Below are positions 7,379-47,400 of a stretch of 64,000 nucleotides of DNA, in pieces (within the stretch, counting starts at the first letter, position 1; the number at the start of each line of letters is the position of its first letter). The stretch covers positions 10,846,938 to 10,910,937 of the forward strand of contig NZ_CP037423.1 of NCBI RefSeq assembly GCF_007754155.1, in the 5' to 3' direction. A model generated the notes under the pieces. It was not told the origin of the DNA. It did not search any database and saw only the letters and a list, made by a program, of their open reading frames with translations. The translations under genes and the position numbers were made by a program. The stretch is from Stieleria neptunia (GTDB taxonomy: Bacteria > Planctomycetota > Planctomycetia > Pirellulales > Pirellulaceae).

Positions 7379-7421
7379 ACCCGAACGGGGCCTGTCTCCC
7401 TCCGGCACCAGACTCCTCCCG

Positions 7422-24914: not shown

Positions 24915-25102
24915 AGGGACCGTCCGGCTTTAGGCGACCGCTTCTCGCACGTACGATGGCCCTTCCGGGCCGTCGCGGGGAGAACTCTTCTCGACGACCT
25001 AGAAAGGACGTCGTACAGCGATCCGCTGACCGCATTACACTCAATCGACGAGATCGTTGGTCTCTGTTGCGTTTCGCGTCTTTCCTAAGCTGGATGGTCT
25101 CT
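24915..25102. mobile_element. MITE-like element, copy A
   Basis: A 188-bp element with imperfect terminal inverted repeats: AGGGACCGTCCGGCTTTAGG at the left (24915) and TCCTAAGCTGGATGGTCTCT at the right (to 25102). It is homologous along its length to the 187-bp element at 34718-34904, including the internal ACGATGGCCCTTCCGGGCCGTCG hairpin and the segment ACGACCTAGAAAGGACGTCG. It encodes no protein. The right end overlaps the stop codon of the phosphatase gene. Movement by a transposase elsewhere is inferred. Confidence 0.75.
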
Positions 25103-25715: not shown

Positions 25716-25878
25716 GGTGACGATGCAGGGTGGTGGTATGATGCAATGGAGCAGCCCGAGCGTCTATCCTACCGCATCAAACGGAAAACGATAATCGCCA
25801 GCACCGCGTTTTGACGCTTTCATGGCCGCCACCACGCCGATCCGACACTGATTTTCCGCTCGATCCTTCTTGAACCAA

Positions 25879-29191: not shown

Positions 29192-29195
29192 ATCG

Positions 29196-30161: not shown

Positions 30162-30162
30162 G

Positions 30163-31014
30163 ATGACGCCGGGGTTCCATTGCAGCAGTTTGCAGTTTCA
30201 CCATCCGGTGACGTTGATTGCGAAGCTGGCGGAACTGGGGTTCGGTGCCGTGGCGATCCGGCCCCGCCGAGGCGGCTGGGATTTGGACACGCCGTGGTTT
30301 GACTCGGCATCGGCGGAGCTGGCTGCGACGGCCAAGGAGCACGGCGTTTCGATCGTGATTGATCTTGATGCGCCGTTTTACGATGACCCGGAGTGCATCG
30401 ATTCGTTTTCGTTGGCCAGTCAGGATGCGGCGATCCGAGATTCGGCCGCTGCGGCCATCCGCCGCTGGATCGAAGGGACGTCGGACATGGGTGCGGTCGC
30501 GATCACGTTTTCCACAGGCCGCGTGTGCCCGCGCGGCGGCAGTCCGTCGGTGGCGGAGGACCATGGCGAACAGATTCTGGAGCGGTTGGCCGGTGCGATC
30601 GCCCCCTTGGTCCAGCTGGCCGCGTCCCTGGGGGTGAACCTGGCGTTGCGGCCGGTGTCCGAGCATGCAATCGCGACGGTGGCCCATTTCGAGCGTTTCG
30701 GGCAATGGATCGGAACCGAGGCGCCGTTGGGGCTGGCGGCCGATGTCGGCGAGATGTTGTTGGGCGGAGAGTTTCCGATCGGGGCGCGATTGGCACGGCT
30801 ACAGCATCGGCTCAGCTGTGTGTACTTGTGCGAACCGGACTTGGAACGCGGCTGTGACCAGCGGTTCGGCCACGGCGACATCGATTTGGGGCGGGTCTGG
30901 GAGGTGATGACCGAGAGCGGCTACGGCGGCCCGGCGATTTTTCGCTGTTGCGGCCACGGGCGGTTGGGGTTGCTGGCGGCGCGGGAGGCGCTCGCGCTGT
31001 TGAATCTGCCGTAG
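30163..31014 (+). CDS. Sugar phosphate isomerase/epimerase-like TIM barrel
   Basis: A 283-residue protein of the xylose isomerase-like/AP endonuclease 2 superfamily. It starts MTPGFHCSSLQFHH, shows alternating strands and helices over the whole length, and has candidate metal ligands in VIDLDAP, AADVGEML and GHGDIDL. It begins right after the UbiA stop, so the two are almost certainly one operon and may act on the same isoprenoid or sugar-linked product. EboE/EboD-type proteins are the closest contextual parallel; the substrate is unknown. Confidence 0.8.
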   Translation: MTPGFHCSSLQFHHPVTLIAKLAELGFGAVAIRPRRGGWDLDTPWFDSASAELAATAKEHGVSIVIDLDAPFYDDPECIDSFSLASQDAAIRDSAAAAIRRWIEGTSDMGAVAITFSTGRVCPRGGSPSVAEDHGEQILERLAGAIAPLVQLAASLGVNLALRPVSEHAIATVAHFERFGQWIGTEAPLGLAADVGEMLLGGEFPIGARLARLQHRLSCVYLCEPDLERGCDQRFGHGDIDLGRVWEVMTESGYGGPAIFRCCGHGRLGLLAAREALALLNLP

Positions 31015-31081
31015 AACCAAGTGGGAAAGGCTTCCACGAATCGCCCCACTGGATTTCAACGATCGATATTGACTTAAACCC

Positions 31082-31108
31082 CGTGAAACACGAAAAAAGT
31101 GTTTCACG
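31082..31108. terminator. Perfect 10-bp hairpin after the TIM-barrel gene
   Basis: CGTGAAACAC, loop GAAAAAA, GTGTTTCACG. It lies 68 bp past the stop of the TIM-barrel gene. No T-tract follows, so it may act as an RNA-stabilising or Rho-assisted terminator rather than a classic intrinsic one. Confidence 0.45.
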
Positions 31109-31236
31109 AGGGCGAATCTGCTGGACCACGTTGGTTGGACAGTCGTATCATGAAATTGCCCCCTGAAGGCGGATGCCGCCAGCCGATAGCGGCTGGCGAC
31201 GCCGGGGCGAGCGGGCGGTCAGGTAGAGACGAGACG

Positions 31237-31521
31237 ATGGTGATGGACGTATTGAGTGATCCGGCCGTGAAGGCTGGTCTTGCACTGCTGATTTTGATCA
31301 TCGTGTCTGCCGCCGCATTTTTCCTCGTGGCAAGGTTGCGCGACTACACCAATGGAGACCGGGATACGACCTCCAGTGGCCTTTTAAACTTCGAAGAAAT
31401 GCGTTTGAAAGGTGACATCAGCGAGGAGGAATTCCGAACAATACAGGCAGCATCCCACCGAACCGACGAAGGGGACGCTCCAGAGAAACGACCGGGCGCC
31501 GACGACGGCGCCCGATCGTAA
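31237..31521 (+). CDS. Small membrane protein with SHOCT-like tail
   Basis: A 94-residue protein when started at ATG 31237 (MVMDVLSDPAVKAG); the frame remains open upstream through hairpin-forming sequence. One transmembrane helix (AGLALLILIIVSAAAFFLVA) is followed by a cytoplasmic tail with FEEMRLKGDISEEEFRTIQ, a SHOCT-like short helical motif seen at protein C-termini, and a disordered acidic/basic end. The role is unknown; such proteins may mediate oligomerisation or membrane recruitment. Confidence 0.65.
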   Translation: MVMDVLSDPAVKAGLALLILIIVSAAAFFLVARLRDYTNGDRDTTSSGLLNFEEMRLKGDISEEEFRTIQAASHRTDEGDAPEKRPGADDGARS

Positions 31522-31950
31522 CGATTGAGATCACCTTCGTCGGAGTGAACCTTCCATTGATTCATTGACGAATCAATTTGTTCTGACGTGCAGGATGCCA
31601 CCTTTTCCGCAGTTGGCCCTCCCATCTTTCCCTGGGCAATCGGCTTCGGAAACCATTTACCCACTAAGTTTACCAACCAGGGTTCAGGCATTCGTTACGG
31701 ACGACTCTTTTAACTCACCTCCCGCTCGGAAGTCGATGACCGATCGCTCGATCACTCATCGTCTTCCCAGCAATGACGCAAAAGAAATGCCTGGGCTGTG
31801 GGCCGAACCGTTTGAAGCTTTCAATCGGCGCGTCCCGACGGGTCGACTGGATACGTAGCGTTGCGGTGCCCCGGCTTCGGCCGGCTGCCGCAACACTCCC
31901 TGCGTGGTCGATCTTCGGACGAGTCGGTTAGAGCAAATAAGGAGTCGTTT
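31522..31950. other. Upstream region of clpX, no gene seen
   Basis: A 429-bp gap. A GC-rich hairpin (GTTGCGG near 31860 pairing with CCGCAAC near 31894) lies about 57 bp before the clpX start and could be in its leader. AAGGAG at 31939-31944 is the clpX ribosome-binding site. No other feature is supported. Confidence 0.5.
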
Positions 31951-33231
31951 ATGCCCGTCAAGGATAACAACAGCACCACGCGCAGTAGCTCGTCGAACAA
32001 GAAGAACGCCTTCTGTTCGTTCTGTCGAAAGAGCTATCGTGACGTCGGTCCATTGGTCGAAGGGCCAGGCGACGTGTACATCTGCGCCGAATGCATTGAC
32101 CTGTGCCAATCGATTTTGGAACAGGAAGAGCGTCGTCGTGGTCCGAGCAAGCAGTTGTTCAGCGATATCCCGTCGCCGCGCAAGATCGTCGAACACCTCG
32201 ACGAATATGTCATCGGACAAGGGTCCGCCAAACGCGTGTTGGCCGTCGCCGTTCACAATCACTACAAACGCTTGACCAGTGATTGGGAAGGGTCCAGCGA
32301 TGTCGAAATCGAAAAGAGCAACATTCTGTTGGTCGGACCGACCGGCAGCGGTAAAACGCTGCTGGCCCGCTCGCTGGCTCGGATGTTGGATGTCCCCTTC
32401 GCCATCGGCGATGCGACGACGTTGACCGAAGCCGGTTACGTCGGTGAAGACGTCGAAAACCTGTTGCTGAAACTGCTGCACGCGGCCGACTTTGACGTCG
32501 AAGCGGCGCAGCGAGGCATCTTGTACATCGACGAGGTCGACAAGATCGGCAAAACCGGCGGCAACGTCTCGATCACCCGCGACGTGTCCGGCGAAGGCGT
32601 CCAGCAAAGTCTGCTCAAGATGCTCGAAGGCACCGTCGCCAACGTGCCGCCCCAAGGCGGACGCAAGCACCCCGAACAGCAGTACATCCAGCTGGACACC
32701 AGCAACATCCTGTTCATCGTCGGCGGGACCTTCGTCGGGATCGAAGACATCATTCGAGACCGATTGGGGCACAAAACCCTCGGCTTCGGCGAAGGCGCCG
32801 GACGACTGAACGAACAGACGCACAGCGAATTGGTCGCCGAGATTCAAGTCGAAGACGTGATGCAGTTCGGGCTGATCCCCGAATTGGTCGGCCGGTTGCC
32901 CGTCGTCAGTTACCTGCAAGAGCTGGATGAAGAAGGCTTGGTCCAGGTCTTGCGTGAACCCAAGAACGCGCTGACCAAACAGTTCGAAGCCCTGTTCAAA
33001 ATGGAAAACTGTGAACTCAACTTTACCGATGGAGCGCTGCACCAGATCGCCCGCAAGGCCCTCAACAAAGGCGTCGGAGCCCGAGGGTTGCGAGGGATTC
33101 TGGAGGAAGTGATGTTGGACATCATGTACGAATTGCCCGAGCAGGAAGAAGGCAAGGTGTACACGATCGACGAGGAAGTGGTGGCCGGAAAGCAAAAGCT
33201 GTTCCAGATGCCGACCACCAAAAGCGCCTAA
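31951..33231 (+). CDS. clpX: ATP-dependent protease ATP-binding subunit ClpX
   Basis: A 426-residue AAA+ unfoldase that delivers substrates to ClpP, including SsrA-tagged ones. The N-terminal zinc domain has four cysteines (CSFC...CAECIDLC). Walker A GPTGSGKT lies near residue 130, Walker [11 protein letters not shown] near 191, the pore loop GYVGED precedes it and the RKH-type loop GGRKHP follows; sensor and C-terminal helical domains are complete. AAGGAG precedes the ATG by ~6 nt. The gene stands alone: no clpP or tig is adjacent, which differs from the common arrangement. An intrinsic terminator follows. Confidence 0.97.
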
Positions 33232-33280
33232 CGGCGACCCTCCAGAGCGACGTCCTGATCGCGAATCACTTCCGTTTCAA

Positions 33281-33317
33281 AACGCCGATGGCCTCCCCCC
33301 GCCATCGGCGTTTTTTC
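33281..33317 (+). terminator. Intrinsic terminator of clpX
   Basis: The stem AACGCCGATGGC pairs perfectly with GCCATCGGCGTT (12 bp) around an 8-nt C-rich loop, followed by a run of T. It starts 50 bp after the clpX stop. A short GCTGCACATC triple repeat lies further on at ~33410-33443. Confidence 0.9.
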
Positions 33318-33461
33318 GTTGGCGACGTTGGCGGCGATGCGTCCGATCCACCAACAACCATGAACCTCGCCCCGCAATGGATGACAACGACGACGAGTCA
33401 GGGGCACGTTGCTGCACATCGCTGCACATCGCTGCACGTCGCTTAAAGTGGCAGCGCTAAT

Positions 33462-34538
33462 TCAGCCGTTACGACCGCCGGAGCCGCTTCGGTGTGAGGC
33501 TGCAATGACGGGTTCGTTCACCATTTCGACCCAGGTGAAAGGGTCCGACAACAGTCCGTGAATGAAGACGATCGGTATCTTGCCGGGCTGATAAGGCTCG
33601 GTCAGATACAACCGGTTCTCGCCACGGGCCGCGTCGGGATCGATAAAGTCGTTCAGAATGGTTCGTCGCTGGTCGCGAAGCCGGTAAGCCATCGGCGCCG
33701 AAAGGTCTTTCGCGATGATCTGCGGGCCGTCGGTCGTCGCCGCCTGATCCACCCGCAGCGGATCGTACATTTCAAGACGGCAGGGCGTCGGGCAATCCCG
33801 CTGCCCGCCAACTGAATTGCCGGCACAGCCCATCCGCAAGGTTGCGGCAAAGACGGATCGGTCCGGCAGAAAGGATCCGTCGATTCGGCCGCACCTCGAG
33901 ACGACCAAGGGGACTCCCACCCCCGATCTTCGGTGCAAATTCCGAACCGCATTGGTTCGGTATTCACCGACGGGGGTCAAAAACTGAAAATCAGCAGCTT
34001 TCCATACAAATCCGTGATACGAGATCGGTATCCGTTCCGCATGACCGTCGCGAACGATCTGCAATCCGCTCTGGGGGTCCAATCGGTTGAACCGTTGGCC
34101 CGTGACCACCAGCTTCATCAGTGCCGACTTGTGCAGATCACGTTGGAAACAGGATTGGCATGATTGGCGATCATGGGCACAGGTGGCCAATGCGACTTGG
34201 AAAAACCAATCAACGCAAGAAGCGTGACCATGTTGTTCATGCTCCACGGCCTTGGCGTACAGGTGCTCGGCGTACAGGTGCTTGGCGGCATCGCGCTGTT
34301 GCCCCGCGGAGAACCATCGTGCGGGAACGGGATCGACGTAATTCGGCTCGAACCACTTGACCCGCGTGACCATGCATCCCGACGCGCAGATCAGTTGCGT
34401 CAAAGCCAGGATGAACAGGTAGACTCGAGAGGGTGGCAAAACGGGTGACCCGCTTGATGAAGCGTGGCGGCATCCGTGCCGGTCCAATGGGAGATGTCGA
34501 AGAAGACGTGGGCATGCGGTCCAACACAACGTTCCCAC
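33462..34538 (-). pseudogene. Truncated alpha/beta-hydrolase lipoprotein
   Basis: The frame begins at a GTG with a lipoprotein-type signal ([18 protein letters not shown]). It continues through the N-terminal region of a planctomycete hydrolase family and reaches [20 protein letters not shown], which is the first strand and oxyanion region of an alpha/beta hydrolase. It stops about 15 residues later, after unrelated sequence. The nucleophile GxSxG, aspartate and histidine parts are missing, and no continuation is visible in other frames. So the catalytic domain is lost; 358 codons remain. Confidence 0.7.
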
Positions 34539-34717
34539 ACGAAGCGTTATCGGAAGCGGTGTCGCTCGTCATCGAGTTTTTCTTCAACGCCAACGAATGT
34601 AGGACGTGTGCGCGTTCGGCGGCAATTCCCAGATTCTTTCCTAGCATCGTCAGCTCTTAAACTTGGAGAGGGGTCAGGTACGAATGGAACGGGCATAAGC
34701 GTTGGTGTGCAGGCTTT

Positions 34718-34904
34718 AGAGACCGTCCAGCTTAGGACGACCGGTTTCTCGAGTACGATGGCCCTTCCGGACCGTCGTCCGCTGGACTCCCGACGACGAC
34801 CTAGAAAGGACGTCGTACATCGGTCCGCTGAACACCTCACACTCAATCGAAGAAATCATGAGGATTCGTCGCGTTTTGCATCGCTCCTAAGCTGGACGGT
34901 CTCT
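34718..34904. mobile_element. MITE-like element, copy B
   Basis: A 187-bp element with perfect 20-bp terminal inverted repeats: AGAGACCGTCCAGCTTAGGA (34718-34737) and TCCTAAGCTGGACGGTCTCT (34885-34904). The repeat extends imperfectly a few bases outward (GGCTTT / AAGCC-like). It is homologous to copy A at 24915-25102. The interior holds a GGCCCTTCCGG hairpin and ACGACCTAGAAAGGACGTCG, and no protein gene. It lies in the 660-bp gap between two pseudogenes; the rest of the gap shows only a half-site GGGGTCAGGTAC (~34669). Confidence 0.8.
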
Positions 34905-35200
34905 TTAGCCGCCCCTTTCGCTGCGTAGCAGGGAAAGGGAATCGCCCAAAGGCTAAACACCAACGGTGGCTGAATACCGTTTTACTAATGCCCCCCTTTT
35001 CGTGGACGATCTGTCGCTGATCAGAAGCGACTTGCACCTTGCGGGAGATTCCTGTATCCAAGCTGTTTGCAGGTAGCTCTCGTTTCTTGTCTTCCATTCG
35101 AGTCTTCACGTCGTGTTGGTGCGTTGCGTCGCCGGAATCATCTCCGGGCTACCGACGGTATTTTGCGACTCTTATGTAACCTGCTCCCGAAGGGACTGCC

Positions 35201-36158
35201 ATGACTCTCGACCGGCATCGGCTTTGTATTGAGCTGCAGCGACTCGACTGGGCCCGGCAACTCTCGCACGACGTGATTGAGGACATCGCGGCAGCCGCTG
35301 AAACAACGCGATTCAAGCCGGGCGACGAGGTGATCGCGGTCGACGCTGAAATCACGAACGTCTACTTCGTCATCGAAGGCAGCCTGGAAGGGTTGCTGTT
35401 TGACCGTCTCGACAAACAGATTCATTGCGAACGGTTTGGTCGCGGTTCGGTGCTGGGGCTCTTTTCGGTCGTCTTGCCGGAATGCTCACACTTGCAGGTC
35501 TCTGCGATCGAGCCGACGACGGTCCTTCACTTTACGCTGGAAGAATTGCTGCGTCTGACCACACAGCATCATACGCTTCAATCAGTTCGATTCGATGCTG
35601 CGCAGGTACCTGAATCATCTCCGCATGGAGCAACTGGTCATTCCCATGACGACGATCGCCGTGGATTTGGTCGAAGGTTCGATGCTGGAGCGGAAGTCGG
35701 GCGATGCGACGCACAATATCTTGGAGAGTATCAATCTGCCTCCCTTGGCCTTGCCGATCGTGAAACAGGGACAAGCGGTGGTCGATGGCGGATTGCTCAA
35801 CAATGTTCCGGCCAATGCACTCTTCGACCAAGGCTGTAATTTTGTCATCGCATCGACCGTGACTGCCAGTTTGGAAAAAGACTTCATGTCGATTCGCGAC
35901 AAACGCTCGTTGGCGGTGGGCGGATTGTTCCCCTCGTTGAAGGTCCTGATGCGGCAATACATGATTCAAGGTCACAGCATGAATGACGTCGGGGTCCAGC
36001 CGGCTGATCTCGTCATCGCCCCCGACGTCACTTCGTTCGATCTCTCCGAATTCACGCGTGCCGACGAAATGTCCGTGATCGGCGAATCCGCCATCAAGGA
36101 ATCGATTCATCGGCTCAAAGCGATGCTCGCCAAACTCGATCCACAGTTGTTTCAGTGA
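35201..36158 (+). pseudogene. NTE-type patatin phospholipase, internally deleted and frameshifted
   Basis: The first frame (from 35201) encodes a cyclic-nucleotide-binding-like domain (RFKPGDEVIAVDAEITNVYF and FGRGSVLGLFS). A second frame (35595-36158) encodes the C-terminal half of a patatin domain with the catalytic-Asp motif VVDGGLLNNVPANAL. The patatin N-terminal part with GGGARG and the GxSxG nucleophile is missing, and the two pieces are out of frame. Intact relatives fuse cNMP domain and patatin in one protein that hydrolyses phospholipids. I read one damaged gene, not two genes. Confidence 0.75.
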
Positions 36159-36177
36159 TCACCCGCAACGCTGCGCG

Positions 36178-36512
36178 ACGGCCCGGAAGGGCCATCGTAC
36201 GGTCATAACCTGTACGACGGCCCTTCTGGGCGGTCGTCGCCGTCGGTACGTGCCTTCAAATGTACGACGGCCCTTCTGGGCGGTCGTCGCCGTCGGTACG
36301 ACGGCCTCCCACGCACGTCGGGCTCGTTCTTCTAACTCGCTTTCTGGGTTGGGTTGTTTGGTTCCGACGGCCCGGAAGGGCCGTCGTACGTTCATTTCTG
36401 TAGGACATCCCTTCTGGGTTGTCCTCCATTCAGCCACCGGCTGAACCGTGCGGTTCAGGCGACGGCCCGGAAGGGCCGTCGTACGTTTTGCTCAACGGCC
36501 CTTCTGGGCGGT
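36178..36512. repeat. REP hairpin array with GACGGCCCGGAAGGGCCGTC
   Basis: Several copies of the ~22-bp palindrome, a duplicated TGTACGACGGCCCTTCTGGG segment (36211 and 36260), and one unit of the ~95-bp repeat (TAGGACATCCCTTCTGGGTT, then TTCAGCCACCGGCTGAA). It follows the NTE pseudogene and runs into the 3' end of the DHH-like gene. Confidence 0.9.
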
Positions 36513-37443
36513 CGCACATGATTTGCTCGATCGCCTGTTCGACTTCTCGAGGGGTTAGTCGGCTGCCGCATCGTCTGGGTGAACCCCCGATCGTATCGCT
36601 ACCTCCCCATTGCTCGTGATCGGCGGTGCTGCCTTCCAGTCCATTGAGCGTCGAGAAGATGCGATCGAGCGGGAATCGTACAAAGGGCGACATCCGGCCC
36701 ACCGTGTAGGCGTAGCGCCCCGTCGGCAACTCCTGCAGCGCCACAAAGGCGCGCACACCTTTGGCAAATAATTTGGTCCGCGCGTATTGACCGTACTCGC
36801 GAATCATTTGCCATCCCTGTCCGCCTCCCAACACGTCGTAGCTTCCGCACAGTTCGCTTTCCTGGCCTTGGGAAAGCGCGATCCGCGAGATCCTCGCCGA
36901 CGTCTCTTCGATCAGGCAGCGCATTTCATCGCCGTTCATCTGTCCCAACGCGTTCGACAATCGAGCCTGATCATACAATTCGAACGCCCAGGTCAGTTTT
37001 CGAATGATCGATCGATCCGGATCGACGGGAATGGCGCCGGCCGTCGCGTCCATCAGGTCTTCGATCAGGATCAGTTGCGAGAGCTCCATTTCGATGCGTA
37101 GATTTCTCACCTGATCGGAATGGGTCAGCATCCAGTAGGCCATGCAGACGTCCTGGTCGCAATCGTTGACAAAGACATGCGTCGGTGTGGTGCCGCGTGC
37201 CGAGAATTTGTCCAACAGGCCCACCAGGATGGCGACCAACACCTGACCGGTTGTGCTTCGGGTCGCCAAGCGGTTCACGCCGCAATGGTGATCAAAGTTC
37301 GCATGGGGCCCGTTGGGATCATACGCGGGCGGACCGTGTACGTAGCCATCCAATGCAATCGAATGGGGCGGATTCTCGCGACAGAAAGCACTCCAGTCTT
37401 TCACGACCCCGGGTTCGACGTGGAGCACGATTTCAGGGCACAT
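36430..37443 (-). CDS. DHH-phosphoesterase-like protein with repeat-derived tail
   Basis: About 337 residues from ATG 37443 (MCPEIVLHVEPG). The segment DGYVHGPPAYDPNGPHANFDHH, followed by FVNDCDQDV, resembles the metal-binding motifs of DHH phosphoesterases. The C-terminal GGSDTIGGSPRRCGS resembles a DHHA1-like substrate loop. The exact substrate is unknown, and the assignment to DHH is my reading of motifs. The last ~25 residues (ending YDGPSGPSPEPHGSAGG) are encoded by the REP array. The gene lies 72 bp downstream of glgP on the same strand. Confidence 0.65.
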   Translation of the reverse strand: MCPEIVLHVEPGVVKDWSAFCRENPPHSIALDGYVHGPPAYDPNGPHANFDHHCGVNRLATRSTTGQVLVAILVGLLDKFSARGTTPTHVFVNDCDQDVCMAYWMLTHSDQVRNLRIEMELSQLILIEDLMDATAGAIPVDPDRSIIRKLTWAFELYDQARLSNALGQMNGDEMRCLIEETSARISRIALSQGQESELCGSYDVLGGGQGWQMIREYGQYARTKLFAKGVRAFVALQELPTGRYAYTVGRMSPFVRFPLDRIFSTLNGLEGSTADHEQWGGSDTIGGSPRRCGSRLTPREVEQAIEQIMCDRPEGPLSKTYDGPSGPSPEPHGSAGG

Positions 37444-37515
37444 GGGATCACTCAAGGAGAAGGGTCAATCGAATCCGCAACGTCGCAATCAGGCCGGTCA
37501 CGCCCCAGACTCATC

Positions 37516-39996
37516 CTATCGTATCGGACACGGCAGGGCATTCCAGATTTCAGCCGCGTACTCGGCAATCGTTCGGTCGCTGGAAAACTTTCCGGCGCAC
37601 GCCACGTTGACGACTGCCTTGCGCACCCAGGCGTCTGAATCAGCGTAAAGTGTCCCCAGTTTCTGTTGGGTGTCTGCATAGGACGTCAGGTCGGCCAGGT
37701 GCATGAAGTAGTCTCCATGATCGAGCAGCGACTCGCGAATCGGGTTGAAGATTCCCGGTTCATCGCGACTGAAGTAATCGTTGAAGATCAGGTCGAGTGC
37801 GGCGCGCGTTTCCGGCTCATTCTCGTAGTGCCAGCGGGGGCTGTACCACCGGCGGCTGCTGGCGACTTGTTCGGCATTCAATCCGAACAGGAAGAAGTGC
37901 TCCTCGCCCGCCTCTTCGGCCATTTCGATCGTCGCTCCATCGCGTGTGCCGATGGTCAGCGCGCCGTTCATCATAAACTTCATGTTCCCGGTGCCACTGG
38001 CTTCATAGCCGGCCGTCGAGATTTGTTCGGAAACGTCGGTGGCGGGGATCAGCCGCTCGGCGACGGAAACGTTGTAATTCGGCACGAACACGACCTTGAT
38101 GCGTCCCCTCGAAACCGGATCTTCATCGATCACCCGACCGACATTGTTGATCAACTTGATGATCAATTTCGCCAACCGATACGCCGGAGCTGCTTTCCCG
38201 GCAAAGAAAAACGTCCGTGGCGGCAGTGTGATCGATGGGTCGGTGCGCAGCCGATCGTACAGCACGATCACGTGCAGAATATTCAGGAGTTGCCGCTTGT
38301 ATTCGTGGATCCGCTTGATCTGACTATCGAAGATCGTGTCCGGGTCAACGATCTGTCCGGTGGTCGATTTCAGCCAATCGGCGAATCGTTCTTTGGCGGC
38401 CCGTTTCGTTTGACGGAATCGGCTTCGGAACGACTCGTCATCGGTCAACGGGAGCAAACGCCGCAATTCACCGAGATCGGTGATCCAGGTGTCGCCGATC
38501 GACTCGCTGATCAAGCCTGCCAGGTCGCGGTTGGCTGCCAGCAGCCAGCGCCGCGGGGTCACACCGTTGGTCTTGTTGTTGAACCGCTCGGGGAACATTT
38601 CGGCAAAATCGGCGACCACGCGTGTGCGGAGCAGATCGGAATGAATTTGAGCGACACCATTGGTGCTGTGGGAGCCCACAATCGCGAGGTTGGCCATCCG
38701 AATCTGCCGCCCACCGGATTCCTCGATCAGACTCATTCGAGACGCTCTTGGGTGATCGCCGGGGTAGCGTTGCTGCACGTCGGTCATGAATCGGCGGTTG
38801 ATTTCGTACACAATTTCCAGCAGCCGCGGACACACCAGCTCAAAGAACTGCACCGGCCATTTTTCCAGTGCTTCGGGCAACAGCGTGTGATTGGTGTAGG
38901 CCAACGTGCCGACGGTCAGGTCCCAGGCCTCGTCCCAGCCCAGTTTTGCCTCGTCCAACAGAAGCCGCATCAACTCGGCCACGGCCATCGCCGGGTGCGT
39001 GTCGTTCAGCTGGATCGCAACCTTGTCCGGTAGCAATCGCCAATCATCGTTGGTGCGTCGGAACCGCGCCACGATGTCGGCCAGCGAACAACAAACCATG
39101 AAGTACTCCTGAACAAACCTCAGGGCCTGGCCGGCTTGTGTCGAGTCGTCCGGGTACAGGACACGCGTCACCGTTTCGGCCAGCACGCGATCCACGATCG
39201 CACCCACAAAGTCGCCCGAACTGAATTCGCCAAAGTTGAAATGGTCCGGTGACGCCGCCCCCCACAGTCGCAGCGTGTTGATGGTCTGGCCGCCGTAACC
39301 GACGACCGGCCGATCGTAGGGAACGCCCAGCAGATGAGTTGCGTGACCGGGGACTGCTCGGAGCATGCCGTCCTGCAATTCGAATCGGCAAGCGATCGGG
39401 ATCTGAACGGTCTGGCGCGGGTGAGTGACTTCCCAAGGATCCGGTTGTGCCAGCCAATGATCGGGCTGCTCCATTTGATACCCGTTTTCGATCGCCTGAC
39501 GAAAGATTCCATATTCATATCGTAAACCGTAGCCGACGGCCGGGATTTGCAGCGTGGCCAGTGATTCAATGAAACAGGCTGCCAGCCTCCCCAGACCGCC
39601 GTTTCCCAGGCCGGCATCGGGTTCCGTTTCGACGACTTCTTTCCAGTCCTGATGCGGGTCGGATTGCAGCTCCTCGCGGACATACGGCTCGACGCCCAGG
39701 TTGACAATGTTGTTGGTCAGCGCACGACCGATCAGGAACTCCATCGATAGATAATACACGCGCTTCGGATTCTCTCGATCATAGGTTTGATCGGTCAGCA
39801 ACCAGCGTTGCGCCAGCAGGTCACGCAAGGAGCGGGCCACCGCTTCGAAGCGTTCGCGCTGGCTGGCTTCGTCAGGCCAAACGACGTGGTCGAAGAGAAG
39901 GTGCCGCTGGTAATGCTCGTGCCCCGTTTTGTCGCTGAAGCGAGCTGCGCCGCACTCGTACTGTTGGAGTATCTGTTGGTCTACTGTTTTTGACAT
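37516..39996 (-). CDS. glgP: Glycogen/alpha-glucan phosphorylase
   Basis: An 826-residue enzyme that releases glucose 1-phosphate from alpha-1,4-glucans. The ATG at 39996 gives MSKTVDQQILQQ; the frame extends upstream without family similarity. Visible motifs include NPKRVYYLSMEFLIGR, EPDAGLGNGGLGRLAACF, NDTHPAMAVAELMR and the pyridoxal-phosphate lysine region EASGTGNMKFMMNGALTIGT. Length is standard. Just upstream lies a glgX remnant, so an ancestral glycogen-degradation operon has partly decayed. Confidence 0.97.
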   Translation of the reverse strand: MSKTVDQQILQQYECGAARFSDKTGHEHYQRHLLFDHVVWPDEASQRERFEAVARSLRDLLAQRWLLTDQTYDRENPKRVYYLSMEFLIGRALTNNIVNLGVEPYVREELQSDPHQDWKEVVETEPDAGLGNGGLGRLAACFIESLATLQIPAVGYGLRYEYGIFRQAIENGYQMEQPDHWLAQPDPWEVTHPRQTVQIPIACRFELQDGMLRAVPGHATHLLGVPYDRPVVGYGGQTINTLRLWGAASPDHFNFGEFSSGDFVGAIVDRVLAETVTRVLYPDDSTQAGQALRFVQEYFMVCCSLADIVARFRRTNDDWRLLPDKVAIQLNDTHPAMAVAELMRLLLDEAKLGWDEAWDLTVGTLAYTNHTLLPEALEKWPVQFFELVCPRLLEIVYEINRRFMTDVQQRYPGDHPRASRMSLIEESGGRQIRMANLAIVGSHSTNGVAQIHSDLLRTRVVADFAEMFPERFNNKTNGVTPRRWLLAANRDLAGLISESIGDTWITDLGELRRLLPLTDDESFRSRFRQTKRAAKERFADWLKSTTGQIVDPDTIFDSQIKRIHEYKRQLLNILHVIVLYDRLRTDPSITLPPRTFFFAGKAAPAYRLAKLIIKLINNVGRVIDEDPVSRGRIKVVFVPNYNVSVAERLIPATDVSEQISTAGYEASGTGNMKFMMNGALTIGTRDGATIEMAEEAGEEHFFLFGLNAEQVASSRRWYSPRWHYENEPETRAALDLIFNDYFSRDEPGIFNPIRESLLDHGDYFMHLADLTSYADTQQKLGTLYADSDAWVRKAVVNVACAGKFSSDRTIAEYAAEIWNALPCPIR

Positions 39997-40045
39997 GACA
40001 AAGCCTTGTTGGAGAGAGACTAACGGGACAAAGGAGAGGTGCGTA

Positions 40046-40369
40046 TCAAGTTGGCGTCTGAACGTTGGCCCCATGATCGGTCAGGGCATAGAGCATCCCG
40101 ACGGACCGTTCGACCACGCGATACGAATCGCCGCCAAAGACGATGCAGTGTGAGGATTCGCTCCAGTCGGGCTGATTCAACTTGACGCCGTGACACGCAT
40201 TGTTCGCTTCACCTAACATTCTGTTGACCCTGATGCGCTGGCGTTCCTGATCAAACAGCAACAATTTGACGTTGGTTGCGGTGCGCGAGAAAAGACTGAA
40301 ATTGACACCCCTGTCAACGACGGTGGCGCCCAAGGGTGAAGGTCGACTCACGATGTTGGCTTGTGTCAT
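40046..40369 (-). pseudogene. glgX: Glycogen debranching enzyme remnant
   Basis: The ATG at 40369 opens MTQANIVSRPSPLGATVVDR and continues GVNFSLFSRTATNVKLLLFD, which is the CBM48 N-terminus of GlgX-type debranching enzymes. After ~40 residues it passes into HGVKLNQPDWSESSHCIVF, the C-terminal domain of the same family. The whole GH13 barrel (about 500-600 residues) is missing, leaving 107 codons in one frame. It sits 49 bp upstream of glgP. It may still be translated but cannot debranch glycogen. Confidence 0.8.
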
Positions 40370-40399
40370 GTCACGTCTTCTCCCATTTAGTGTCGATGG

Positions 40400-40840
40400 T
40401 ACGACGGCCCTTCCGGGCCGTCGCGTTTCGCTCTCGACCGCCCGGAAGGGCCGTCGTACATTCAATTCTGTAGGACATCCCTTCTGGGTTGTCCCCCGTT
40501 CAGCCACCGGCTGAACCGTGCGGTTCAAGCGACCGCCCGGAAGGGCCGTCGTACATTCAATTCCGTAGGACATCCCTTCCGGGTTGTCCTCCGTTCAGCC
40601 GCCGGCTGAACCGTGCGGTTCAGGCGACCGCCCGGAAGGGCCGTCGTACATTCAATTCTGTAGGACATCCCTTCTGGGTTGTCCTCCGTTCAGCCGCCGG
40701 CTGAACCGTGCGGTTCAGGCGACCGCCCGGAAGGGTCGTCGTACATTCAATTCCGTAGGACATCCCTTCCGGGTTGTCCTCCGTTCAGCCTCCGGCTGAA
40801 CCGTGCGGTTCAAGCGACCGCCCGGAAGGGCCGTCGTACG
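40400..40840. repeat. REP array: four tandem ~95-bp hairpin units
   Basis: TAGGACATCCCTTC recurs at 40471, 40566, 40661 and 40756, an exact 95-bp period. Each unit holds the GACCGCCCGGAAGGGCCGTC hairpin, a GGACAT...GTCC hairpin and TTCAGCCGCCGGCTGAA. Units differ at scattered positions (C/T at TTCTG/TTCCG). All reading frames across the array are open, which produces false gene calls. It separates the glgX remnant from the receptor kinase. Confidence 0.95.
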
Positions 40841-40875
40841 GTATTCTCGATAGCTTTCTCGCCATACCGGGGCGT

Positions 40876-43206
40876 CTACTCGTTTAGCCGCGACGTCCAT
40901 TCGTTGCCCCAACCGACGTAAAGGTCGTGAAGAAAGGCTTTCCAATCTTCGGCGGTACGGCTGGGCGGATAGGGGTCTGGCCGAATCGGTTCGTCGGCGC
41001 TCCAGACAACTCGGATCTGCCCATCGTCTTGAATCTGGCCGATTCTTGGAATTTGAAAACAGTGTTGCGTTTCGGGATCGATGCGGACTTCGCCTTCCGG
41101 AGCGACGAGGTGCTGGCCGCGGATCGCCCGGCGAATTTTCTTGGGTTCAATGCTCTCCGCGTCACGTACGGCCTGTGCCCACAAATGGACGCCCGCGTAA
41201 CCATTCTCCATCGCGCCGGAAACCACGCGATGGGGGTGTTTGGCCTTGAACCGCGCTAGAAAGGCCTGGTTGGCGGGGGTATCCAAGGATTGAAAATACG
41301 TCGAAGCGACGTAGTCACCTTCAACCGAGGCGATGTCCAGGCCGCGGAGTTCCTGCTCACCAATGCTGAACGACAAACAGGGCGTGTCGTCTCGCTTGAT
41401 ACCGGCTGCACGGATGGCACGGAAAAAGGCCACGTTGGAATCACCGTTGAGCGTATTGACGATCAGATCCGGCTTGGATTGCAAGATCGCTTGCACGACC
41501 GGTTCGAATTCCGAACCGCCCAGCGGCAGATACCTTTCGCCGACCACTTCCGCGTCCAATTGCTCGAGTTGGTCTTTGATCACTTCGCTGGCGGTGCGTG
41601 GGAAAACGTAGTCGGACCCCACCAGAAAAAACCGTCTTCGGTTCAGACTCTCGCTGGCCCAGGCGACGGCAGGAATGATCTGCTGGTTGGGGGCGGCACC
41701 CAGATAAATGATGTTGGGAGACTCTTCCATCCCTTCGTACTGAAGTGGGTAGACCAGCAGGTGGTCGTGCGCTTCGATGATCGGCCTGACGGTCTTGCGA
41801 CTCGCCGAGGTCCAGCAACCGAACACCGTACAGACGTGCTCCTGGACAATCAGCCTTTCCGCCTCGCGGGCATAGCTCTGCGTGTCCGATCGACCGTCGG
41901 CGACAACCGCTTTGATGGGACGGCCCAACAAGCCGCCCGACTCGTTGATTTCGTCGATCGCCAGCAGCGTGGCATCGATGACGCTGGTTCCGCTGGCGGA
42001 CATCGTGCCGCTGATGGACTGCAGCAAACCCACCTTGATCGGCTCGCCTTGCGGGGCGATCGGGGTGGGAACGGATGGGAGAAAACTCCAGACGGAAAGT
42101 GCAATCACGAGGAACAAGGTCAAAGCGACGATGCCGCCTATCAACCGGCGATCGGTTTGCAACGGCTTGGACGGTCCGATTGGGGCGCGCCTCATGCCCG
42201 ACTGGCTGGGCAGGTCGATTCGGGCTTCGCCCGACAAGGCTGCAGCCACGGCTTCCAAATCTCGCAGCATCGCCTCGGCGGACGGATAGCGATCGTCCGG
42301 ATCTTTCGCCATCGCGTGGGAGACAATCGCCGAGCATGCCGGTGGGACCGACGGACGAACCTCACGTGGATCGGGAATGCTCTTGTTGCAGTGGGCGTAC
42401 ATGACCTGCACGACACTGTCGGATTCATCGTACGGTTGTCGTCCGGTCAACAGGCAGAAGTAGGTTGCGCCGAGCGAATAGATGTCCGTGCGGGTGTCGA
42501 CGGGTTGCGCCTGACATTGTTCGGGGCTCATGAAGTACGGCGTACCGAGGATCGTTCCCGACTGCGTCAGTTGCATTGCCCCGCCTGTTGAAGAAAACTT
42601 CGCCAGTCCGAAGTCGGTCAACTTGACGGCTCCGTTGGCCGCTCGCACCAAATTCGCCGGCTTGATGTCGCGGTGGATCAACTCTTCGGCGTGAGCGGCC
42701 GCGATGCCGTGGCAGGCGTCGATCAGGATCCGAGTCGCTTCGAGCGGAGAGCAGGCGCCGCGGGTTTGCAATTCCGCCGCGATGCTGCCGCCGGTCAGCA
42801 GTTCCATGACCAGATAGTTCCATTCACCTTCTTGGGCGATCTCGTAGATTGCCGCGACGTTGGCATGGCTGAGTTTTCCCGCGGCCTTGGCTTCCGACTG
42901 AAAGCGGCTCAGGGCGGTCGCGTTGGCGGCCAAGTTCCCGGTCAGGATTTTGATCGCCACGTCGCGTTCGAGCGTCGGGTCGTGGGCCCGCAGCACAACG
43001 CCCATGCCTCCCTGTCCGAGCATCCCGGTGATTTCATATTTGCCCAGCGACTTGCCGATCCAGTTCTCCGCGGGCAGACTCCCTTGTGAGATCGGTGCGG
43101 TATCACCTGGAATCGCGGACATGCTTTCGGTTTCGCCGAATTGCATTCGCGTGACATCGTCGCGCCGTTCAGGCGTCTCAGGCGGAGGTTTCTTGTCTGA
43201 CGGCAT
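40876..43206 (-). CDS. Receptor Ser/Thr kinase with UrtA-like extracellular sensor
   Basis: A 776-residue protein. Residues ~54-320 are a Hanks-type kinase: glycine loop GMLGQGGMGVV, VAIK lysine, HRDIKPAN, DFG (LTDFGLAKF) and SPEQ. One membrane helix follows (LIGGIVALTLFLVIALSVWSF, ~353-375). Residues ~385-740 are a type I periplasmic binding fold of the urea/short-chain-amide group: IKVGLLQSISGTMSASG, CTVFGCWTSASRKTV and GAAPNQQIIPAV are close to UrtA/FmdD/AmiC. It is inferred to phosphorylate cytoplasmic targets upon binding an amide-like ligand. No urea transporter or urease genes are near. REP arrays lie on both sides. Confidence 0.92.
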   Translation of the reverse strand: MPSDKKPPPETPERRDDVTRMQFGETESMSAIPGDTAPISQGSLPAENWIGKSLGKYEITGMLGQGGMGVVLRAHDPTLERDVAIKILTGNLAANATALSRFQSEAKAAGKLSHANVAAIYEIAQEGEWNYLVMELLTGGSIAAELQTRGACSPLEATRILIDACHGIAAAHAEELIHRDIKPANLVRAANGAVKLTDFGLAKFSSTGGAMQLTQSGTILGTPYFMSPEQCQAQPVDTRTDIYSLGATYFCLLTGRQPYDESDSVVQVMYAHCNKSIPDPREVRPSVPPACSAIVSHAMAKDPDDRYPSAEAMLRDLEAVAAALSGEARIDLPSQSGMRRAPIGPSKPLQTDRRLIGGIVALTLFLVIALSVWSFLPSVPTPIAPQGEPIKVGLLQSISGTMSASGTSVIDATLLAIDEINESGGLLGRPIKAVVADGRSDTQSYAREAERLIVQEHVCTVFGCWTSASRKTVRPIIEAHDHLLVYPLQYEGMEESPNIIYLGAAPNQQIIPAVAWASESLNRRRFFLVGSDYVFPRTASEVIKDQLEQLDAEVVGERYLPLGGSEFEPVVQAILQSKPDLIVNTLNGDSNVAFFRAIRAAGIKRDDTPCLSFSIGEQELRGLDIASVEGDYVASTYFQSLDTPANQAFLARFKAKHPHRVVSGAMENGYAGVHLWAQAVRDAESIEPKKIRRAIRGQHLVAPEGEVRIDPETQHCFQIPRIGQIQDDGQIRVVWSADEPIRPDPYPPSRTAEDWKAFLHDLYVGWGNEWTSRLNE

Positions 43207-43231
43207 GTGGATCTAAATTCGGTTGCCCTGT

Positions 43232-43320
43232 GTTGTGCGACGGCCCGGCAGGACCGTCGTACCAAGACGTGCAGTACGACGGCCCTTCCGGGCCGTCGCG
43301 TACGTCGCAGCGACGTACGT
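43232..43320. repeat. REP pair beside the RAYT gene
   Basis: Two hairpins of the GACGGCCC...GGGCCGTCG family (43238 and 43277 regions) in opposite orientation, followed by an ACGTACGTCGCAGCGACGTACGT-type palindrome core. They lie directly at the 3' end of the RAYT gene. This is the classic BIME arrangement expected next to a REP-associated transposase. Confidence 0.85.
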
Positions 43321-44025
43321 TTAGTGTGTTGATCCGGAAGGGCCTGCGCTCACCTCTTGGAAACGCCAGCCTTCGGCCTGCCAGTCGGGATGGATCCAAC
43401 GATGCCATCGGCTTGATGGCAAGCCGGCTTTCCGAGGATTGTTTCCGATGTATTGGACAACGCGAAACAAATGTTCTTCATCGCGAATGATGCGGTCGTA
43501 GCTCTCTTCGGCCCAGATTGCTCCGTGTCGTTCGAGCTGCTTGTTGATTTTAAACCCGACATAACCCTTCCAGCTTTGGAGAATGTCCTCCAGTTCAAAC
43601 TCATCCAACGGCTTGACGACCACATGACAGTGGTTGGGCATGACGCAATAGCATGCGGTGAAATACCGTTGTTGTTGAAAATGCATCAAGGCGTCGGACA
43701 TCATTTGTACGGTGGATGCATCGCGGAGGTAGCACTCACCATAGCCTTCGTCCATCCAACGCTCGGTTCGGCATGTAATCTCACGAGCGAATTCATGCCA
43801 CTGTGCTTCGGATCGTGGTTGTGGATTTGTTTGCTCCCAAATTTCGCGCCATCTTTGAAGGTCGTCGCGTTGCTTCCGGGGGATGGAGTCGGCCAGTCGG
43901 AAGGTTACAAAATACGTCGCCCCGTCTTGCCGCCAGTGTGGAAGGTGTCGTTGATAAAACCGAATGGGCAGATCGGGATCGAGCCCACGAAAGTGCGACG
44001 GAGCGGACAGGTTGAACGTTGTCAT
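43321..44025 (-). CDS. REP-associated tyrosine transposase (RAYT)
   Basis: A 234-residue Y1/HUH protein. The metal-binding HUH motif is in YCVMPNHCHVVVKPL; the upstream block ATYFVTFRLADSIPRKQRDDL and the segment around SYDRIIRDEEHLFRVVQYIGNNPRKAGL with its tyrosines are typical of TnpA_REP. Such enzymes nick and join REP hairpins as single strands and spread them. It is flanked by REP copies on both sides, as expected. It ends in EVSAGPSGSTH, part of which appears repeat-derived. Confidence 0.93.
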   Translation of the reverse strand: MTTFNLSAPSHFRGLDPDLPIRFYQRHLPHWRQDGATYFVTFRLADSIPRKQRDDLQRWREIWEQTNPQPRSEAQWHEFAREITCRTERWMDEGYGECYLRDASTVQMMSDALMHFQQQRYFTACYCVMPNHCHVVVKPLDEFELEDILQSWKGYVGFKINKQLERHGAIWAEESYDRIIRDEEHLFRVVQYIGNNPRKAGLPSSRWHRWIHPDWQAEGWRFQEVSAGPSGSTH

Positions 44026-44089
44026 CTGCGGTTCAGCTGCACGACGGTGTAGGACAGCGCTTTTAGGCCGTCGGGATCTTCATTGTTGT

Positions 44090-44462
44090 ACGACGGCCCT
44101 TCTGGGCCGTCGGCTCTGTATAGCTCGGGGGCTGAACCGGTCGGTTCAAGCGACGGCCCGGAAGGGCCGTCGTACGTTCAATTCTGTAGAACATCCCTTC
44201 CGGGTTGTCCTCCGTTCAGCCTCCGGCTGAACCGGTCGGTTCTGGCGACCGCCCGGAAGGGCCGTCGTACGTTCCATTCTGTAGGACATCCCTTCCGGGT
44301 TGTCCTCCGATTCAGCCACCGGCTGAACCGGTCGGTTCTGGCGACCGCCCGGAAGGGCCGTCGTACATTCAATTCCGTAGGACATCCCTTCTGGGTTGTC
44401 CTACGTTCAGCCTTCGGCTGAACCGGGCGGTTCTGGCGACCGCCCGGAAGGGCCGTCGTACG
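44090..44462. repeat. REP array: three ~95-bp hairpin units
   Basis: TAGGACATCCCTTCC-type landmarks lie at 44187 (TAGAACATCC), 44282 and 44378, spaced 95 and 96 bp. They are in the same orientation as the 40.4-40.8 kb array. The array occupies the upstream side of the RAYT gene and enters the 3' end of the RND permease gene at 44407-44462. Confidence 0.95.
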
Positions 44463-47400
44463 GAATCCGGTAGAGCGTCGCGTAGAGCGTGGGCACCATC
44501 ACCATCGTCAGCCCCGTGCCGACGATCAGACCGAAAAAAATCGTCACGGCCAAGGCAACCCAAAACACGTCTTGCAGCATTGGTAACACGCCGAGCACGG
44601 TGGTTCCCGCCGCATTGACCACGGGGCTCAAGCGCGAGACCCCCGCTTCGACCACGGCGTTGTACGGCGTCAGACCTTTACCGAGATTGGCGTTGACTTC
44701 ATCCAGCAGCACGACGGCGTTCTTGATCATCATGCCCGATAGACTCATCGCTCCCAACAATGCGATGAATCCGAATGGTGTCTGCGTCAACAACATGCCC
44801 CCGGTGATGCCGATCATCACAAAGGGAATCACTCCGATGCAGATCAGCATGGGGCGAAATCCGTTGAACAATGCGACCAGAATAAACAACATGATGACGA
44901 CGGCAGGGACGATCCCCGGCGCCAACGCTTCCTGCGACTGCTTCGCACTCCAGTACTCGCCGTCCCAGTCCAATCGATAGCCCGGCGGAAGCTCAATGGC
45001 GTCGAACTTGTCGACGATCGCGTTGCGCAGGGTCGGTGCCGTGGTGCTGTTGGGTGAGCACTGAACGGTAATGGCTCGGCGACGATCCCAACGCCAGATG
45101 ATCGGGTCTTCCCAGGGCACCTCGATGCCGTCGATGACCTGTGAAACGGGTACGGAATGGGTCGACAACTTCGGTGTGACTTGAAGTTCTTCCAGCGAAG
45201 TGGCCGCCCGCTGGCGTTCGGATTCGACACTCCGCGCCACGATCGGAATCAAATCGTCGTCCTGCCGGTATTGTCCGACGACGACGCCGTCGGAGGCGCG
45301 CTTCATCACCCGAGCCAAATCGTCGCGCGACACGCCTGCCCAACGCGCCCGTTCCTGGTTGTATTGCGGTGACAATGCCTGGACACGCTCACGCCAATTG
45401 ACGCGCACTTCCTTGGCCAGCGGGGTATCTCGCAAGATCTGCGCGCCCTCTTCAGCCAGCCTGCGCAACGTCTCCGGGTCGGCGTTGGCCGGTCCGCTGA
45501 AGCGTGCTTCGATCTTCCAGTCATCAAACGCGCCGACCGCGTATTTGCGAACCCGCACCATCGCCTCGGGGACGTTCTCTTTCACCCAGGCATCGGTATC
45601 GGCGAGAAGTTCATTGACGCCGTCGAGCGACTTCGTGTTGACGATGATCTGGGCGTAGGAGGTGTAGGGGTCTTCGGCACTGACCGGCAAGTAGAAGCGG
45701 GGCGGGCCTTTGCCGACAAAGGCACTGACCGAGGTGGTCGCCTCGTGCTGCTGGACGTACGCTTCGATCCGCTGCAAATCCGCACTCGTCTGCTGGATCC
45801 GCGTTCCCTCGGGAGCCCAGTAGTCGATCATCACTTGCAATCGACTGGAGTCTGGGAAATACAGCTGGGGCACCCAGCGGAAGCCGAACACGCTGACCGC
45901 CAACAACCCGACCATGCTGGCCAGGAACAGAAAGCGATGGCGGATGGTCAGTGACAACAGTTTGCGAAATTTCTGATACAGCGTCCCCTGGTACGGGGCG
46001 GTCGTTTCTTGTCCCTGCTTGGGGTCCGGCAACATCGCCATGCACAACAATGGCCCGATCGTCTGGCAAAACACCCAGCTCAATAGCAACGAGATGGCCA
46101 CGACCGTGAACAGGCTGCCGGCATACTCGCCGGTGTCGTAGCTGGAGGCAAAGATCGGATAAAACGCCATGCAGGCCACGATCGTCGCGCCCAGCAGCGG
46201 GATCGCCGGTGCGTCGGCCGCTTCGATCGCCGCTTGCTTGCGGTCCATGCCTTTGGCGATCCGCACCATGATGCCGTCGGTCACCACGATTGCGTTGTCG
46301 ACCATCATCCCCATCGCGATGATCATCGCGCCGAGTGAAATACGGTGCAGGTCGATCCCCATGATCGCCATCACGATGAAGGTGCCCAGAATCGGGAACA
46401 CCAGCCCGCTGATCCCGATGATGATGCCGGGCCGAATCCCCATCGTGAACGCCAGCAGCGCGAGCACGATCGCCACCGCTTCGAGCAGGCTGACCATGAA
46501 CGCGCGGATCGATTCGCTGACCTGATCGGATTGCCAGGAGATGCGTTCGATGTTGATGCCGACCGGCAACTCGGCCAACAACTCGTTGATCCGAGTGTCG
46601 ATGCGCGTGCCCACCTCGACAACGTTTTCACCGGCAGCCGGGGCAATCGCCAACGCGATCGCCTCGCGACCGTTATGCCGCAGCAACTGTGTCGGGGGGT
46701 CGATGTAACCGACGTTGATCGTCGCCAAATCGCGGATGCGGATGATCTCATCTTGTCCGTTGACTACGCTCGTGATCGCCAGTTCGCCGATTTCCTCGGG
46801 CGTGCCGAACTCGCCCGTCGGTGTGACACGCATCCGCTGTGTCTGGTAATCGACGTTGCCGGCGTCGACGACCATGTTCTGCGATTGCAGGGTTTGAATG
46901 AACTGCGCCGGCGTGATGTTCAATTCGGCAAGTTGCGATGACGAGACGTCGAGGTAGATTCGCTTTTGCTGGACGCCCCAAAAATCGACGCGCGCGACCC
47001 CTTTGACGACGCTCAGCTCCTTTCGCATGTCCTTGACGTAGCGTTCCAGCTCGGCGTAGCTGTAACCGTCGCTGCTGACGGCCAACAAGAACCCGAACAC
47101 GTATCCGAAGTCGTCACCGACCTTCGGCTTGCCGGCCCCCGGCGGCAGTGTCGGTTCGATGTCCGCGACCTTCTTGCGCAGCACATCCCAGACCTGTGGC
47201 AGGCGTTCGGACCAATAGTTGCTCTTGATATCCACCTTGATGATGGACAGTCCAGGCCGTGAGTTGGAATAGACGGCCTTGACCTCGGCCATCTCCTGCA
47301 ACTTCGTTTCGATCCGGTCGGTGACCTCCAGTTCGACCTGTTCGGCGCTGGCGCCAGGATAGGTCGTCGTGATGGCCGCCGTCTTGACGGAGAACTCGGG

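Follow-up and report, generated by a model that had tools for sequence, protein, structure and literature searches.

A Stieleria neptunia transmembrane Ser/Thr kinase with a urea-type binding domain is a candidate receptor for urea or a similar small amide

The window analyzed here, a 64,000-nucleotide stretch of the Stieleria neptunia genome, carries a gene for a 776-residue protein (P0001) that combines a Hanks-type kinase domain, one predicted membrane helix and a UrtA-like ligand-binding domain (Table 1). This combination had been proposed in the original prediction from the letters alone, and it is borne out by matches to PF00069 and PF13433 and by the single predicted helix; the position given there is exact, and the strand, which had been left out, is minus. 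The PF13433 match (481 bits against a cut-off of 27, E 3e-144) spans model positions 1-360 of 363, and the sole hydrophobic segment of the protein begins at residue 355. The kinase domain is 36% identical to the PknB structure 2fum and contains the expected catalytic residues (K86, H178-R179-D180, D198 and E229), with K86, the HRD triplet, D198 (of DFG) and E229 (the APE-type glutamate) invariant in 60/60 aligned fusions. Among solved structures, the closest folds to the sensor are, in order, a urea-binding protein (8tg1), UrtA and AmiC; the underlying VIA list is filled by sensor-domain matches, and the absence of other folds from it carries no meaning. The predicted model of the whole protein reached a pTM of only 0.55, and the mutual arrangement of the kinase and sensor halves is therefore not predicted.

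Table 1. Features of the sensor kinase gene and its surroundings, in window coordinates.
Feature	Position	Strand	Basis
Sensor kinase gene, 776 aa (P0001)	40876..43206	-	ORF list, Pfam domains, dN/dS
Hanks-type kinase domain, residues 57-312	42271..43038	-	PF00069, 155 bits (cut-off 31.7)
Single predicted membrane helix, about residues 355-373	42088..42144	-	hydropathy 2.54; model helix 356-373
UrtA-like ligand-binding domain, residues 390-749	40960..42039	-	PF13433 Peripla_BP_5
Stretch with the nine pocket residues	41365..41814	-	mapped via 8hic alignment
C-terminal tail W..FL..LY..WG..W, residues 743-772	40891..40980	-	tail HMM; model helix 752-765
Glycogen debranching enzyme, remnant only: CBM48-containing frame of 175 aa, downstream of the kinase	40046..40573	-	PF02922, 28.8 bits
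Glycogen phosphorylase	37516..40074	-	PF00343, 1010 bits; 88% to the L031 homologue
Y1_Tnp (IS200-like) protein, 234 aa, between palindromes	43321-44025	-	PF01797, 25.3 bits against 23

Pairwise NG86 estimates against the homologues at loci L122 and L031 yielded dN/dS values of 0.14 and 0.13, respectively, for the whole gene. The ratio is lowest in the kinase part (0.08 and 0.09), intermediate in the sensor part (0.13 and 0.12) and higher in the helix-containing linker (0.25 and 0.22) and in the first 55 residues (0.36 and 0.22). By this measure the gene is under purifying selection, and the sensor kinase is real, conserved and functional-looking.

The same domain order, which had been suspected in other planctomycetes, was found in many of them, both in the sensor search and in the family genomes. 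In a search with the sensor region, kinase and sensor were both present in 107 of the best 120 of 7999 candidates (query included), and some of the 13 remaining listed relatives without a kinase may be fusion fragments; 80 of the 107 loci were kept. A hydrophobic segment lies within the 60 residues ahead of the sensor in 102 of the 107 database fusions. Among 199 family genomes (this genome, G000, included), PF13433 matches with an E-value of 1e-60 or better occur in 44, and 22 have a kinase in the same frame as the match; within the genus the fusion is patchy (5/14 genomes). Several variants accompany the basic layout: P0002 has two tandem sensors behind the kinase, P0004 a trypsin-like domain followed by two tandem UrtA-like domains, and P0051 TPR repeats between helix and sensor. 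A separate clade of six rows (support 100/97), which includes two hybrid kinases by Pfam (L026 and L030), has the sensor fused ahead of a histidine kinase, and one genome (G438) carries both the Ser/Thr-kinase and the histidine-kinase type of fusion. Searching with the kinase region revealed Peripla_BP_6 without Peripla_BP_5 in 20 of the best 120 of 7999 candidates, and 18 of these 20 show no similarity to the urea-type domain, the other two only a weak one (13 bits); P0133, P0141 and P0152 are examples of this kinase lineage with a Peripla_BP_6 sensor. Since these listed kin carry a different sensor, the kinase is apparently a chassis that accepts different binding proteins, and the group looks, from its domain composition, like a receptor-kinase family with exchangeable binding proteins.

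To evaluate the putative ligand we compared the sensor with Prochlorococcus UrtA, in which nine residues lie near urea (W120, S122, Y141, Q144, E146, Y190, F192, N246 and S274; PMC10392092). According to the excerpted account in that source, mutating S122, Q144, Y190 or N246 strongly lowers or abolishes binding and W120A is non-binding, while mutants of Y141, E146 and S274 show reduced binding and F192 has a minor effect (PMC10392092). All nine contacts are identical in the 776-residue protein (W465, S467, Y486, Q489, E491, Y533, F535, N587 and S614), with positions assigned by counting along the alignment with 8hic, and the loss of ligand-contact residues that would have spoken against the original prediction is thus not seen in the sequence. 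The full set is kept in 111 of 130 distinct kinase fusions and altered in 19, and for this reason urea would not be the ligand across the whole family. Altered pockets occur even in close relatives, among them P0009, P0012, P0016 and P0017 (Q144 to K, N246 to A) and, in the same genus, L121 (N246 to V); L128 is a further close relative with an altered pocket. A ligand switch or loss within a subclade likely explains these substitutions. The same nine residues are also found in 26 of 49 permease-linked relatives, not all of which are proven urea importers, and the set alone is therefore no proof of urea; others carry, for instance, YSYLEYYVT or YSYYEYYVV. In an alignment read by eye, AmiC differs from the 776-residue protein at five of the nine positions (Y P Y V T against W Q F N S), so that the pocket is not of the AmiC type, and the relatives with YSYLEYYVT or YSYYEYYVV pockets differ likewise. 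The protein also falls short of the curated cut-off of the UrtA model TIGR03407 (456 against 492.75 bits).

Genes for the use of urea were searched for across the genomes, a search that covered urease, UrtB, FmdA/AmdA and allophanate hydrolase. The whole S. neptunia genome yielded no urease alpha subunit and no UrtB, each at E 1e-30, no FmdA/AmdA and no allophanate hydrolase above cut-off, which extends to the genome what had been noted for the adjacent genes and agrees with the view that the protein is not simply a fused transporter part. Urease alpha is present in 8 of the 199 family genomes and UrtB above cut-off in 6, and each is found in 0/22 fusion genomes, one of which (G296) has a single UrtB-like match below cut-off (121 against 250.3 bits). 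The depletion of urease in fusion genomes is not significant (Fisher P = 0.60, ignoring relatedness), and its absence from the 22 genomes indicates that the fusion does not need urease. FmdA/AmdA was detected in three of 26 fusion genomes searched (G338, G384 and G266). All 26 have matches to the allophanate hydrolase model TIGR02713, none of them above cut-off; we take these to be GatA-type amidases. Urea as a nutrient for the fusion carriers was considered and rejected on the absence of urease alpha from the 22 fusion genomes. As this search turned up no urea-degrading gene in S. neptunia, urea would be a cue and not a substrate, and the protein probably detects urea, or a compound much like it, for signaling and not for nutrition.

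To investigate the origin of the sensor we inferred trees from 242 distinct sensor sequences, 104 of which entered a quick tree and 63 of those a careful tree, the alignment of which covered the binding domain as far as residue 752 and hence only about ten residues of the tail. Near duplicates and long branches (L040, L036, L065, L078, L135, L029, L067, L070 and others) were dropped from the careful tree. In this tree of 63 rows, one clade (100/99) unites 32 kinase fusions, one protease fusion and seven solo proteins, and within it the kinase fusions group with the protease variant (99/98), surrounded by the solo proteins. The UrtA proteins of planctomycete urea operons constitute a separate clade (100/100), and descent of the sensor from them was rejected, joint grouping costing 66 units of lnL (p-AU 9.5e-5, for a UrtA group that was named after a first tree had been seen). 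In the quick tree, L036 and L040 fall within the larger clade of fusions, and L117, L065 and L078 lie beside it with a permease-linked pair (support 84).

Signaling genes lie next to several of the solo relatives. Sensor histidine kinases adjoin L035, L073, L040 and L152, and histidine kinases adjoin L065 and L078; the UrtA-type loci L037 and L038 continue into a permease gene. Chemoreceptors lie beside L151, with a dCache-like part, and L036. L142 adjoins a dCache-HAMP-PAS protein, a direct search placed a histidine kinase bearing a dCache-like part at 7 bp from L143 and at 29 bp from L144, and the start of a dCache-like protein stands at the contig end of L141; the PF02743 dCache cut-off (45 bits) is reached only at L073 and L142, the other dCache-like matches being weaker. 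Since the sensor is most closely related to solo proteins whose neighbors are histidine kinases and chemoreceptors, the shift away from transport into signaling probably predates the fusion, and the idea that a transport receptor was itself reused in the kinase finds no support in that form. The sensor appears, from trees and gene order, to stem from a binding-protein lineage that is mostly signaling-linked and mostly tail-bearing. Two Eremiobacterota MAGs have, next to the solo protein and its histidine kinase, a divergently oriented Ser/Thr kinase frame (L065, 8617-10284, minus strand; L078, 8603-10000, minus strand), an arrangement that might represent an unfused stage. The L035 record is titled Nitrosopumilus, an archaeon, and its tail-bearing protein and histidine kinase resemble those of a Nitrospinia record (L073), possibly reflecting a binning error.

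Beyond the binding domain, the protein ends in a short tail in which W755, L759, D761, W766, G767 and W770 are invariant across 60 aligned fusions. A tail HMM covering residues 743-772 was built from these 60 fusions and applied with a threshold of 10 bits; since P0001 belongs to the training set, the solo proteins are the real test of the tail. The model reaches the threshold in 129 of 130 kinase fusions, the one miss (L156) stopping at a contig end, and in seven of 93 solo proteins (L002, L004, L025 at exactly 10.0 bits, L035, L073, L111 and L151), each of which adjoins a histidine kinase or chemoreceptor, a cut dCache-like frame in the case of L111. The 93 solo proteins comprise 49 permease-linked proteins, 12 signal-linked proteins (11 by search and L117 by Pfam) and 32 without an assigned neighbor. 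The tail is present in 7/12 of the signal-linked and 0/49 of the permease-linked proteins (Fisher P = 2e-6, ignoring relatedness and with signaling references taken from three tail-bearing loci, which favors finding their kin), and in none of the 32 without an assigned neighbor. Five signal-linked solo proteins are tail-less (L036, L040, L065, L078 and L117), indicating that signaling use is wider than the tail, and the HMM finds no tail in the six histidine-kinase fusions. The 776-residue protein belongs to the tail-bearing lineage both by its tail at 743-772 and by its position in the 100/99 clade, and we infer from these patterns that the tail may be a contact surface used in signaling.

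The DNA around the gene holds the remains of a glycogen/energy island that the original prediction had missed. Across 25 loci (the window and 24 others, with L031 and L125 being the same record, L123 and L124 sharing a genome, and L140 a histidine-kinase fusion), the recurrent neighbors are a LOG-type protein (PF03641; 8 loci), a debranching enzyme (7), V-type ATPase subunit A (6), glycogen phosphorylase (6, window included), MscS (4) and phosphoketolase (3). The debranching frame starts 12 (L126) and 9 (L129) bases past the kinase frame, the starts being mechanical. At L032, a cytochrome c552 (NrfA-type) gene immediately precedes the kinase frame; it and a NapC/NirT cytochrome gene (6777-11170) hint at nitrite ammonification under the same control, and the surroundings also encode phosphoketolase, lactate/malate dehydrogenase and a debranching-type protein. 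A debranching enzyme of the island type (at least 76% identity to the L031 protein) is present in 6 of 18 genomes tested, namely in 6/9 with the fusion and 0/9 of the same genus without it (Fisher P = 0.009, ignoring relatedness and largely reflecting linkage). Fusion loci scanned outside the Stieleria/Rhodopirellula-type subclade have unrelated neighbors (a short-chain dehydrogenase, PQQ and BNR repeat proteins, another kinase and two proteins without a family), and the glycogen link is therefore confined to one subclade; a link common to all fusions was rejected, as none appeared outside that subclade among the loci scanned.

The window itself shows an eroded version of the island. Searches for homologues of LOG, V-ATPase A, MscS and XFP came up empty there, glycogen phosphorylase is retained, and the debranching gene survives in pieces: residues 1-42 of a relative's GlgX match window positions 40369-40244 at 83%, further pieces being weak. 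A repeat array with 95-base spacing fills the gap. A REP-like 25-base palindrome occurs in 20 copies at 24951-44461 (at most 3 mismatches) against 0 expected in the window, and its arrays, with the 95-base spacing, flank the kinase gene on both sides (40340-40909 and 44056-44531), with the Y1_Tnp protein presumably a REP-associated transposase. Animal glycogen phosphorylase has a phosphorylation site; the N-terminal tails of six homologues examined are not conserved and lend no support to an animal-like site.

Together, these results are most consistent, with a probability that we put at about 0.6, with a one-pass receptor Ser/Thr kinase switched by urea or a very similar small amide outside the membrane. 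The external Venus-flytrap domain, of the urea-binding type, would close on urea or a near analogue, closure would rearrange a receptor dimer, and the change would be relayed via the single helix to the cytoplasmic Hanks kinase, which would thereby be switched. The tandem sensors in cis of P0002 and P0004 fit such a dimer-based receptor. The domains, the predicted helix, the intact catalytic and urea-contact residues and the descent are read from sequence comparison and a structural model; we infer urea as the ligand, an effect of the ligand on kinase activity and dimerization as the means. The output in its own subclade may be glycogen breakdown and fermentative or anaerobic energy metabolism, as gene linkage within that subclade more weakly suggests.

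The same receptor mechanism could operate with a ligand other than urea, be it another small amide, a guanidino compound or something else, the pocket being kept for the fold or for the amide group. Urt-like permeases encoded beside amidase genes have, in the excerpted text of PMC3098086, a specificity signature almost identical to that of urea permeases, so that urea-type systems may take other amides, and both the pocket variation in 19/130 fusions and the lack of urease or UrtB above cut-off in the 22 fusion genomes sit easily with such a ligand. We nevertheless consider it rather unlikely in view of the W-S-Y-Q-E-Y-F-N-S set, W120, Q144 and N246 included, that is kept in 111/130 fusions, and of the five of nine positions at which AmiC departs from it by eye. 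Loss of pocket residues in some relatives and the decay of the island around this copy would also suit a sensor that no longer binds any ligand and serves as the dimerizing or anchoring module of a constitutive kinase; given the full pocket of the 776-residue protein and a dN/dS that is lower in the sensor (0.12-0.13) than in the helix-containing linker (0.22-0.25), this is improbable.

Homology to UrtA, and names assigned automatically, for example urea transport system substrate-binding protein, might suggest that the sensor is still the binding protein of an ABC importer, now tethered to the membrane, and that the kinase regulates this importer. The failure to find UrtB at E 1e-30 here or above cut-off in the 22 fusion genomes, and a phylogeny that sets the sensor apart from planctomycete UrtA, render this very improbable. 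The patchy occurrence within the genus is the one observation that an accidental gene fusion or annotation artefact would explain, a concern already raised with the original prediction. It is scarcely credible for a gene whose kinase and sensor co-occur in 107 of the best 120 relatives (query included), close relatives among them, whose fusions and protease variant form one clade (99/98) and whose dN/dS of 0.13-0.14 over its whole length points to purifying selection.

Extending the receptor reading, a wider scenario may be put forward tentatively. A UrtA-like lineage would have left transport, gained a C-terminal docking tail and become a urea receptor for many outputs, including histidine kinases, chemoreceptors with dCache-like domains and, in planctomycetes, fusions to Ser/Thr kinases, some with TPR repeats, and to a trypsin-like domain. 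The Stieleria/Rhodopirellula kinase, encoded in genomes that yielded no urease, would then respond to urea purely as a signal, adjusting glycogen mobilization and fermentative metabolism.

Should the receptor indeed bind urea, organisms in which no urease was detected would be using it as a signal, and in one subclade gene order would connect this signal with carbon storage. More generally, the sequence suggests a specific and cheaply testable ligand for a large group of receptor kinases, and the tail may help to separate signaling from transport binding proteins. The names that automatic annotation currently gives these kinases (urea transport system substrate-binding protein, aliphatic amidase expression-regulating protein) are misleading.

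Fusions of this layout do exist elsewhere, as had been surmised, and single polypeptides joining a solute-binding protein (SBP) to a kinase are in general already in print: MSMEG_1200 (StpK7) of actinobacteria is named together with "a further 260 SBP kinases" (PMC6069109, in excerpt). MSMEG_1200, like the protein studied here, combines a Ser/Thr kinase and a solute-binding domain, but the 776-residue protein has a urea-type sensor, whereas the excerpted text of PMC6069109 gives no ligand for MSMEG_1200. The protein misses the cut-off of NF052427, the StpK7/MSMEG_1200 model, by a wide margin (185.9 against 900 bits, over residues 52-375 only), and searches of the open-licence PMC literature turned up no account of a Ser/Thr kinase that carries a urea-type sensor. 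What appears new is thus the urea-type variant of SBP-kinase fusions, with an unusually specific and testable candidate ligand. The GlnH-GlnX-PknG system of mycobacteria and corynebacteria, in which a periplasmic solute-binding protein drives a Ser/Thr kinase controlling central metabolism, is a precedent in trans, with three separate proteins and aspartate or glutamate as ligand; GlnH is a different kind of binding protein, named after the glutamine-binding protein (PMC6069109, in excerpt).

UrtA (8hic, 7s6e and 7s6f) and the Caldicellulosiruptor protein 8tg1 share the fold of the sensor at 42-49% identity, but the 776-residue protein differs from UrtA in being fused to a kinase, in having no importer gene found, in scoring below the TIGR03407 cut-off and in its extra tail. 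AmiC of Pseudomonas aeruginosa (1pea and 1qo0) has the same fold at 33% identity and exemplifies the regulatory use of a binding protein, with AmiR as its partner according to the title of 1qo0. The PASTA receptor kinases PknB and PrkC differ in sensor fold and ligand; like the protein described here, they combine a Hanks kinase, one helix and an external sensor, and their dimerization is ligand-linked (PMC6213207, in excerpt).
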